Positions 44,314 to 46,472 of a stretch of DNA of 64,000 bases are shown in pieces (the stretch's first letter is position 1; each line of letters opens with the position of its first letter). The stretch is from contig CANMMR010000003.1 in NCBI GenBank assembly GCA_947499095.1, positions 248,001 to 312,000 on the forward strand, given 5' to 3'. The notes beneath the pieces are model-generated. The model was not told the DNA's origin. It worked only from the letters and a program-made list of their open reading frames with translations, and made no database searches. Position numbers and translations under genes: made by a program. Source of the DNA: an uncultured Erythrobacter sp. (GTDB taxonomy: Bacteria; Pseudomonadota; Alphaproteobacteria; Sphingomonadales; Sphingomonadaceae).

Positions 44314-44664
44314 CTGTTTGAGATAACGGCCTTTTCGACGCAGACGCTGCTGATTCTTTCCGGCGGAGCCGCCGTGCTGATCGCGCTGGTGGGTACGCGC
44401 ATGGCGGGGCTGGCGGACACGTTGGCCGACCGCACGGGCTTCGGTGAAGCGCTCGTCGGATCGGTGCTGCTTGGCGCAGGCACGAGCATCGCCGGCATCG
44501 TGACATCCGCCAGCACGGCGGCGAGCGGCGCGCCCGATCTGGCCGTGTCCAATGCGATGGGTGGGATCGCCGCCCAGACCATGTTTCTGGCGGTGGCCGA
44601 TGTCGCGTATCGCAAGGTCAATCTGGAGCATGCAGCGGCCAGCCCGGTAAATCTCGGTCAGTGA
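44314..44664 (+). CDS. Na+/Ca2+ exchanger-like protein, N-terminal half, CTG start
   Basis: 116 aa. It contains a membrane segment ([19 protein letters not shown]) and the first alpha repeat of a CaCA antiporter ([40 protein letters not shown]). The frame ends at TGA 44662-44664 after NLGQ, where relatives continue without a break. GGGGGAG at 44303-44309 is 4 nt before CTG 44314; the first conventional start in this frame, GTG 44374, would remove the first helix. The conserved Glu of the usual GTSLPE motif is missing here (GTSIAG). It may be a half-gene or the front of a frameshifted gene. Confidence 0.6.
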
Positions 44665-45347
44665 CGGTGCTGATCATCCTCACGATTCTGCCGATCATGG
44701 TCTGGGTGTCGCCTCACTTCGCCATTGTCGGCGTCAATCCGCTGACTCCGGTGCTGGTCATGGTCTACCTCGTCGGTCTTCATAACGCGCACCGGATCAA
44801 GCAGCGACCGATGTGCCTGCCGCGGAAGACCGATGCCACGCGCGACGAGGACGACGACGAGTGTGACGGCCGGCGGCCTCTCGCCCTGCTGTTCGCGATC
44901 CTCGGGGGCATGGTCGCCGTGGTTGGCTTATGCGGCTATGTCGTGGGCACTGCCGGACTGGAACTCTCCGGCAGGCTCGGCATATCGCAGGGCGTCGTCG
45001 GGGCGCTTGGCACTGCCATCGTCACTTCCCTGCCGGAGCTGGTCACCACCATCGCCGCGGTCCGCAAGGGGGCGTTGCAGCTGGCGGTTGGCGGGATCAT
45101 CGGCGGCAACCTGGTCGACGCGCTGTTCATCGCCGCCAGCGACGTCGCCTATCGCGAAGGCAGCATCTACAATGCGATGAGCGAGCGCAGCGTCTTCTGG
45201 ATCTCGCTATCGATCCTGATGACCGGCATCCTCCTGTTAGGCCTGCTCCGGCGCGAGCGACAGGGGCCCGGCGGGATCGGCTGGGAATCGGTCTTGCTGA
45301 TCGGCTTGTGGCTCGGCGGAGCTGCTCTACAGATTTCGCTCGGCTGA
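44661..45347 (+). CDS. Na+/Ca2+ exchanger-like protein, C-terminal half
   Basis: 228 aa, GTG 44661 overlapping the first half's stop by 4 bp in another frame. [14 protein letters not shown] continues the helix expected after the first half. A charged cytoplasmic loop ([17 protein letters not shown]) follows, then the second alpha repeat with [20 protein letters not shown] and [13 protein letters not shown]. The acidic SLPE motif is intact. Together the halves give about 345 residues, a normal CaCA length. One extra base at the junction would fuse them. Confidence 0.65.
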
Positions 45348-45351
45348 CCTC

Positions 45352-45381
45352 TCGACAGACGCGCTTGTTCCATTTATGTTC
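45352..45381 (+). promoter_or_regulatory. Promoter with LexA (SOS) box upstream of radical SAM gene
   Basis: -35 TCGACA (45352-45357), 17-bp spacer, -10 TATGTT (45375-45380). The direct repeat GTTC-CATTTAT-GTTC at 45367-45381 is an exact match to the alphaproteobacterial LexA operator GTTC-N7-GTTC and covers the -10. The expected transcription start (about 45387) coincides with the ATG, so the mRNA may be leaderless. Confidence 0.75.
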
Positions 45382-45386
45382 TATCG

Positions 45387-46472
45387 ATGGACAAGCGGAT
45401 GGAGCCAGCCATCGCCGGGCGAGGCGCGCAATCGGCCAGCGTGCCGACGCGCTTCGGCCTCGCCACGCGCGAGACCGACGGAGACTGGCGCGATCACATG
45501 GAGACGCTGGACGGGCCGCCGGTGAAGTTGCGGACGCATGTGACGGAAGAGCGTCCACGAACGATCCTCAGCTTCAACCAGTCGCCGGACATCATCTTCG
45601 ACCGCTCGATCAATGCCTATCGCGGCTGCGAGCATGGCTGCGTCTACTGCTTCGCGCGGCCGACGCATGCCTATCACGACCTGTCGCCTGGGCTGGATTT
45701 CGAGACGCAGCTCTTCGCGAAGCCCAATGCGGCGGAGATCTTGCGCGCCACGTTGGCCAAACCGAAATACCGCCCGAAGCCGATCGCGATGGGCACGAAT
45801 ACCGATCCCTACCAGCCTATCGAGCGCGATTACCGGATCACGCGTTCGGTGCTGGAGGTGTGCCTCGATGCGCGGCATCCCGTGACGATCACGACCAAGT
45901 CCGACCGCGTGCTCGACGATCTGGACCTGCTTGCCGAAATGGCCGAGCGCAGGTTGGTGGCAGTGGCGATCTCGGTCACGACGTTCGATCCCAAGCTTTC
46001 CGGCAAACTCGAACCGCGCGCGGCATCGCCTGCCAAGCGTTTGCAGGCACTAGGTAAATTATCCGACGCCGGCGTGCCGACGCATTGCTCGGTGGCTCCG
46101 GTCATCCCCGCGATCACGGACGAATTCATGGAAGAGATCGTCCAGCGCGCTGCAGCGATGGGTGTCGACAGTTGCGGCTGGATCCCGCTGCGCCTGCCGC
46201 ATGAAGTCGCCCCGCTGTTCCGCGAATGGCTCTCGGTCCACTATCCCGAGCGCGGCGACAAGGTGATGAGCATCGTGCAGTCCATCCGCAGCGGCAAGGA
46301 CAACGATCCGAACTTCTTCAGCCGCCTGCGCCCAACCGGCGTCTGGGCCGACCTCTTCCGCGCCCGCTTCCGCCTTGCCTGCAAGCGCGCCGGCATCGGC
46401 AAGACGAAGTTCGAGCTGGACTGCACGCAGTTCCGGCCGCCAGCTGTGGGCGGGCAGTTACGGTTGTTTTAA
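45387..46472 (+). CDS. PA0069-family radical SAM protein, SplB-like
   Basis: A 361-aa radical SAM enzyme. The cluster motif is CEHGCVYC (Cys81, 85, 88) followed by FARPTHAY. Other family blocks are MGTNTDPYQPIE, TKSDRVLDDLD and SVAPVIPAITD. It is related to spore photoproduct lyase-type enzymes but the substrate is unknown. The LexA box immediately upstream suggests a DNA-damage role. ATG 45387 has no Shine-Dalgarno, in keeping with a leaderless message. Its stop codon lies in a terminator hairpin. Confidence 0.88.
   Translation: MDKRMEPAIAGRGAQSASVPTRFGLATRETDGDWRDHMETLDGPPVKLRTHVTEERPRTILSFNQSPDIIFDRSINAYRGCEHGCVYCFARPTHAYHDLSPGLDFETQLFAKPNAAEILRATLAKPKYRPKPIAMGTNTDPYQPIERDYRITRSVLEVCLDARHPVTITTKSDRVLDDLDLLAEMAERRLVAVAISVTTFDPKLSGKLEPRAASPAKRLQALGKLSDAGVPTHCSVAPVIPAITDEFMEEIVQRAAAMGVDSCGWIPLRLPHEVAPLFREWLSVHYPERGDKVMSIVQSIRSGKDNDPNFFSRLRPTGVWADLFRARFRLACKRAGIGKTKFELDCTQFRPPAVGGQLRLF

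Follow-up and report, generated by a model that had tools for sequence, protein, structure and literature searches.

A study of 2012 (PMC3323433) predicted LexA sites upstream of splB for both Alpha- and Betaproteobacteria. Its available part takes the splB product for a photolyase, does not observe the trait in Gammaproteobacteria and names no member of Sphingomonadales in the table on Alphaproteobacteria. The same part gives GTTC-N7-GTTC as the LexA motif of Alphaproteobacteria and CTGT-N8-ACAG as that of most beta- and gammaproteobacteria (PMC3323433). According to the accessible portions of later reports, SplB (COG1533) belongs to the SOS regulons of several groups, Bacteroidetes included (PMC8565304, 2021), a radical SAM protein belongs to LexA regulons of Gram-positive bacteria and Balneolaeota (PMC7739468), and radical SAM or SplB-like proteins have also been linked to the SOS response elsewhere (PMC3765255). 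The systems of PMC8565304 and PMC7739468, as far as those portions describe them, resemble the one studied here in having a radical SAM gene under LexA and differ from it in their LexA motifs. Closer still is the 2012 splB, for which the available part of PMC3323433 likewise places a LexA site before an SplB-like gene. In S. meliloti (L396, L398) and P. denitrificans (L397), the genes of the PA0069 family carry GTTC-N7-GTTC, and because both species stand in the table of PMC3323433, so far as it is available, the splB of that study is very probably the PA0069 family; SOS control of such a gene is therefore not new.

PA0069-family radical SAM enzymes are little studied, and hitherto unknown repair chemistry may well be found among SOS genes without an assigned function. 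A search of the open-licence literature did not find PA0069 as a member of the LexA regulon; reportedly, it is part of the P. aeruginosa LexA regulon published by Cirz in 2006. Nor did this literature yield a report of a leaderless architecture, of an extension to Sphingomonadales or Microbulbifer, or of the residue argument given below. What the present analysis adds are the members from Sphingomonadales, Microbulbifer and other non-alphaproteobacterial lineages, the distance between the -10 and the ATG, which is kept as the operator shifts, and evidence against a standard spore photoproduct lyase.

The source genome comprises 2.96 Mb in 25 contigs, and the window, meaning the whole stretch of 64,000 nucleotides that was analysed, corresponds to G000:C3:248001-312000. 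One of its genes encodes a radical SAM protein which scores 446.4 bits against NF033668 (curated cut-off 360) and thereby belongs to the PA0069 family (Table 1). The cysteines of its CX3CX2C cluster motif (C81, C85 and C88) are invariant in 41 of 41 relatives. A Na/Ca exchanger-like ORF (44661-45347) lies upstream on the same strand, and the 39-nt gap between the two reading frames holds both promoter hexamers, 17 nt apart, as well as the direct repeat. This upstream ORF is the second of a pair in 44374-45347 that overlaps by 4 nt; its similarity is to the C-terminal portion of Na/Ca exchangers, so that two genes of half size may together make up the antiporter. The exact GTTC-N7-GTTC repeat named in the original prediction was borne out, as was its position over the -10 of a well-spaced promoter, while the distance of 6 bp to the ATG had to be corrected to 5 nt.

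Table 1. Features of the PA0069-family locus in the window.
Feature	Position	Strand	Remarks
-35 hexamer TCGACA	45352..45357	+	promoter scan; conserved in 57 genus relatives
LexA-type operator GTTCCATTTATGTTC	45367..45381	+	exact GTTC-N7-GTTC direct repeat
-10 hexamer TATGTT	45375..45380	+	promoter scan; inside right part of operator
PA0069-family radical SAM gene	45387..46472	+	361 aa; NF033668 and Radical_SAM PF04055 matches

To describe the promoter, the region 45200-45600 was scanned, and a single promoter-like site was obtained, with 9 of 12 bases matching, compared with 0.1 such sites per shuffled sequence. Among the 57 genus relatives, the first T of the -35 is conserved in 98% and its third-base G in 67% at a fixed distance from the box, and the TAT of the -10, 17 nt from the -35, in 98-100%. 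No Shine-Dalgarno sequence is visible before the ATG, and SD-like words occur in only 2 of 130 cases. As a general rule, transcripts start about 7 nt after the -10. The -10 ends 6 nt before the ATG, within the 6-7 nt that, together with the lack of a Shine-Dalgarno sequence, characterize a leaderless message, and from its position the transcript start is predicted to lie on or next to the ATG at 45387. The proposed start on the ATG and the proposed leaderless message thus agree with the sequence and with the closeness of the -10 to the ATG in relatives, and we consider it likely that the PA0069-family message is leaderless.

The distance between box and first in-frame ATG was determined in 150 distinct upstream stretches, for which two sets of relatives were pooled and near-identical sequences dropped. 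It peaks at 5-6 nt (67 stretches) and at 23-24 nt (30 stretches), with smaller numbers elsewhere, and a single promoter layout for all relatives was rejected on account of these two main ranges. In the short-distance group the -10 is contained in the box, so that only the longer range provides independent evidence on the -10. Among the 57 stretches with the box 15-26 nt from the start, 39 contain, clear of the box, a hexamer that agrees with TATAAT in at least 4 of 6 bases and begins 10-14 nt before the start codon, mostly at -12, compared with 14 on average and at most 22 in shuffles; the other 18 loci do not follow this pattern of a -10 close to the ATG. Judged by these hexamers, the putative -10 holds its place relative to the start codon as the operator shifts, the pattern that leaderless messages should show. 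Its constant position emerged when the stretches were anchored on the ATG. Another layout for the longer range, in which the left GTTC with the preceding TT serves as -35 and the -10 follows 16-18 nt on, was tried and rejected; a control spacing scored higher.

The box could be real and the gene still be only weakly SOS-dependent, if much of its expression were read-through from the upstream antiporter gene. The shared strand and the short gap would allow this, and no terminator-like site was found in 45200-45600; against it, a promoter of its own and the box are kept among relatives with differing upstream sequence, and we regard substantial read-through as unlikely.

A second question concerns the enzyme, which had been called SplB-like. 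In a PDB fold search with a structure model built from 41 relatives (mean pLDDT 82.6, pTM 0.82), all six top matches are entries of spore photoproduct lyase (14-16% identity, TM 0.52-0.55, E 5.5e-08 to 5.7e-07), which assigns the modelled protein to the fold of this lyase. In spore photoproduct lyase, according to the available parts of the literature, Cys141 is the hydrogen donor, and Tyr99 and Tyr97 take part in the radical path (PMC3742179, PMC5368176). Cys141 is numbered C140 in the solved structure. The PA0069 family shares with the lyase family (PF20903) its closest PDB fold, the CX3CX2C motif and the Tyr97 position, which is Tyr in 41 of 41 relatives. Unlike the lyase, it has Phe at the Tyr99 position in 33 of 41 relatives (Tyr in 8; Phe89 in the protein of the window), and a conserved fourth, hydrogen-donor cysteine is absent from the alignment of the 41 relatives, where the three cluster cysteines are the only invariant ones and the next best cysteine column reaches at most 24 of 41. 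MAFFT misplaced the Cys141 loop, and the exact counterpart of Cys141 is therefore uncertain; a match of the TDP motif by eye gave Thr137.

Profile searches were performed as well. The SPL profile PF20903 did not match the window protein at E 0.1 or any protein of the genome at E 0.001, and 9 of the 41 relatives matched it weakly (best E 0.00091). A search of PDB sequences with the window protein returned nothing up to E 10, the family profile gave weak matches to NifB and SkfB only, and a profile comparison with true SPL aligned 109 columns in the second half. In the alphaproteobacterial genome G428 a true SPL gene (272 bits) and a PA0069 gene occur together (L262, L363), an argument for a division of tasks between the two. 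On the missing profile match and the residues, membership in the SPL family was rejected. The residue argument is no proof, because the lyase of C. acetobutylicum has its conserved cysteine elsewhere, at C74, according to the available parts of PMC3742179 and PMC5368176. Fold, cluster motif, Tyr97 position, weak SPL matches of some relatives and this displaced cysteine all speak for the reading in which the enzyme is spore photoproduct lyase and the SOS response controls repair of the spore photoproduct, as in the 2012 splB proposal; set against the replaced residues, the failed SPL match in window protein and genome and the co-occurrence in G428, it appears improbable. The modelled enzyme has the same fold as spore photoproduct lyase and probably does not carry out the same reaction by the known route; the SplB-like label holds for the fold and fails for the catalytic residues. 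The residues caution against trusting the usual labels of spore photoproduct lyase or photoreactivation, and they do not support the photolyase reading in the available part of PMC3323433.

To assess conservation of the box, a family search was carried out in 147 genomes. Matches were obtained in 120, of which 111, including the source genome, were examined (left out were G066, G072, G079, G092, G116, G117, G133, G143 and G145); as 59 of the 111 loci come from one genus, these relatives are not independent. The exact box lies within -200 to +90 of the aligned start in 105 of the 111 loci. In the 110 loci with usable upstream sequence, 14 other patterns matched 0-6 loci, and base shuffles gave a mean of 0.5 and a maximum of 3 matches. 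Conservation in relatives, one of the three tests singled out beforehand as able to overturn the original prediction, thus came out in its favour. Neither GTTC half varies among the 57 genus rows, base conservation drops sharply outside the box, and the flanks hold little shared information among relatives.

Six loci have no exact box in this range. Three of them (L047, L048 and L055) carry one further up, at -233 to -268, L038 has GTACTTGATTTGTTC at -239, L067 has GTTTCTGATATGTTC, with one mismatch, at -20, and in L104 the upstream sequence is absent. In L038, L047, L048 and L055 a small ORF of 39-44 aa, ending for example in RYVVIIDDEHIFLGEMF, precedes the PA0069 gene, and the LexA box lies upstream of both. 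This ORF, which gave no Pfam match over the cut-off, is present in 4 of 118 searched genomes of the order, all from order-family f4.

A scan of public genomes, in which the best 80 loci were kept, included some genomes already counted and consisted of 12 beta- or gammaproteobacterial or related loci and 68 others, or 67 after L234, which lacks upstream sequence, was set aside. The exact box was found within -200 to +90 in 59 of these 67 named relatives. Three of the remaining eight have exact boxes further up, at -208, -379 and -467, the last of which may be a chance match, as other ORFs intervene, and five have one-mismatch forms, three of them GTACTTGTTTTGTTC. The box has the form GTAC-N7-GTTC at four loci (L240, L254, L255 and L038), where it occupies its usual place or precedes the small ORF; by its sequence this is perhaps a lineage variant of the LexA site.

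We also analysed a phylum sample of 249 genomes, 88 of which had a match over the cut-off, scanning -300 to +90 at the best-scoring 30 of 46 loci from other alphaproteobacterial orders and at all 32 loci from outside the class. GTTC-N7-GTTC was present in 25 of the 30 loci of other alphaproteobacterial orders (five control patterns: 0-3) and CTGT-N8-ACAG in 23 of the 32 from outside Alphaproteobacteria (seven controls: none). Therefore, as read from these motifs, the operator of PA0069-family genes matches the lineage's own LexA code at most loci, though not at every one. The five alphaproteobacterial misses are four one-mismatch forms and one exact box at -385. Nine loci outside the class are without CTGT-N8-ACAG, and eight of them also without a one-mismatch form; one of the nine, L375, carries TTAGTAATAATACTAA, which resembles the xanthomonad LexA site. 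The 12 named beta- or gammaproteobacterial and related loci comprise five with CTGT-N8-ACAG and seven without, and eight other patterns matched none of the 12. CTGT-N8-ACAG is present at both Achromobacter loci and at all three Microbulbifer loci, the latter in contrast to the available part of PMC3323433. A LexA site is thus retained even where lineages differ in their LexA code, which is what one expects of a functional SOS gene.

Promoter constraint could account for part of the conservation of the box, which overlaps core promoter elements, and the conserved bases might be read as promoter elements or as the site of another regulator. We consider this very improbable: the GTTC halves are invariant whether the box lies 5-8 nt or 15-26 nt from the ATG, the same motif stands before lexA and recA of the source genome, and loci from outside the class have CTGT-N8-ACAG instead, which the available part of PMC3323433 gives as the LexA motif of most beta- and gammaproteobacteria. 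A single GTTC-N7-GTTC site is unremarkable on its own, with 2 exact matches in the window against a mean of 1.70 expected (at least 2 in 51 of 100 shuffles) and 75 in the genome, where the backwards control has 49, and its significance comes from conservation; with the box kept at the gene start while the flanks vary, and with the controls far below it, a chance match to a common eight-base pattern was rejected as having practically no probability.

By its sequence, its presence before lexA and recA in its own genome, its overlap with the promoter and its conservation, the box has the properties of an alphaproteobacterial LexA operator, and LexA control of the PA0069-family radical SAM gene is predicted with high probability. 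LexA bound to the operator would cover the -10 and keep RNA polymerase off; upon DNA damage, RecA-stimulated self-cleavage would remove LexA, and transcription would then begin at or beside the ATG, giving a leaderless message for a radical SAM enzyme with the predicted fold of spore photoproduct lyase. Its substrate would most likely be damaged or abnormal nucleic acid, handled by a way other than the known radical path of the lyase; we moderately favour a nucleic-acid substrate. Of the proposal that the gene is SOS-induced, the conserved LexA-type operator over the promoter stands, with induction being probable, and the novelty does not, given the splB of 2012. The wider reading, in which the PA0069 family is a core SOS member across much of Pseudomonadota, with an operator that tracks the LexA code of each lineage and a radical SAM enzyme that acts on some other lesion or abnormal base and is no spore photoproduct lyase, has in our estimate an even chance of being right. 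If it is true, photoreactivation under SOS control is the wrong reading of the PA0069-family gene.

Other LexA-type boxes of the genome were inspected as well. Its lexA scores 175 bits over the cut-off. Besides lexA and recA, the genes that follow this motif include radA, uvrD/pcrA, rmuC, a DinG/YoaA-like helicase gene, mmcB and rSAM_link_UDG. Some other genes preceded by it, a pyridoxamine-oxidase-like and a glyoxalase-like one among them, have no known part in repair. A crude gene caller placed 36 of 72 motif sites of the genome inside genes; because at least 2 of them (L031 and L173) actually lie just before a start, no enrichment figure is given for genic and intergenic sites.

As a yardstick, the best-scoring 30 loci each from 61-genome searches for recA and rSAM_link_UDG were used. 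The box was found at 28 of 30 recA loci (25 forward, 3 reverse) and at 29 of 30 rSAM_link_UDG loci, all in reverse and close before the ATG. The rSAM_link_UDG gene of the source genome (TIGR03916; L031, G000:C2, near 403249-404483) resembles the PA0069 gene in coding for a radical SAM protein and in having a LexA-type box immediately upstream of the ATG; it differs in belonging to another family and in its box, which has the opposite orientation and ends 2 nt before the ATG. Because a TATA-like stretch lies inside this box, its message may be leaderless too. SOS control of a UDG-based repair pair has already been published, according to the available part of PMC8565304. We assume that COG4277 of that report corresponds to TIGR03916.

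Finally, a box was found 78 nt upstream of a gene (L154/L033, G000:C4, near 154504-155265) that encodes a LexA/UmuD-type peptidase part and scores below the lexA cut-off; by this arrangement the gene is a possible second damage-responsive regulator.
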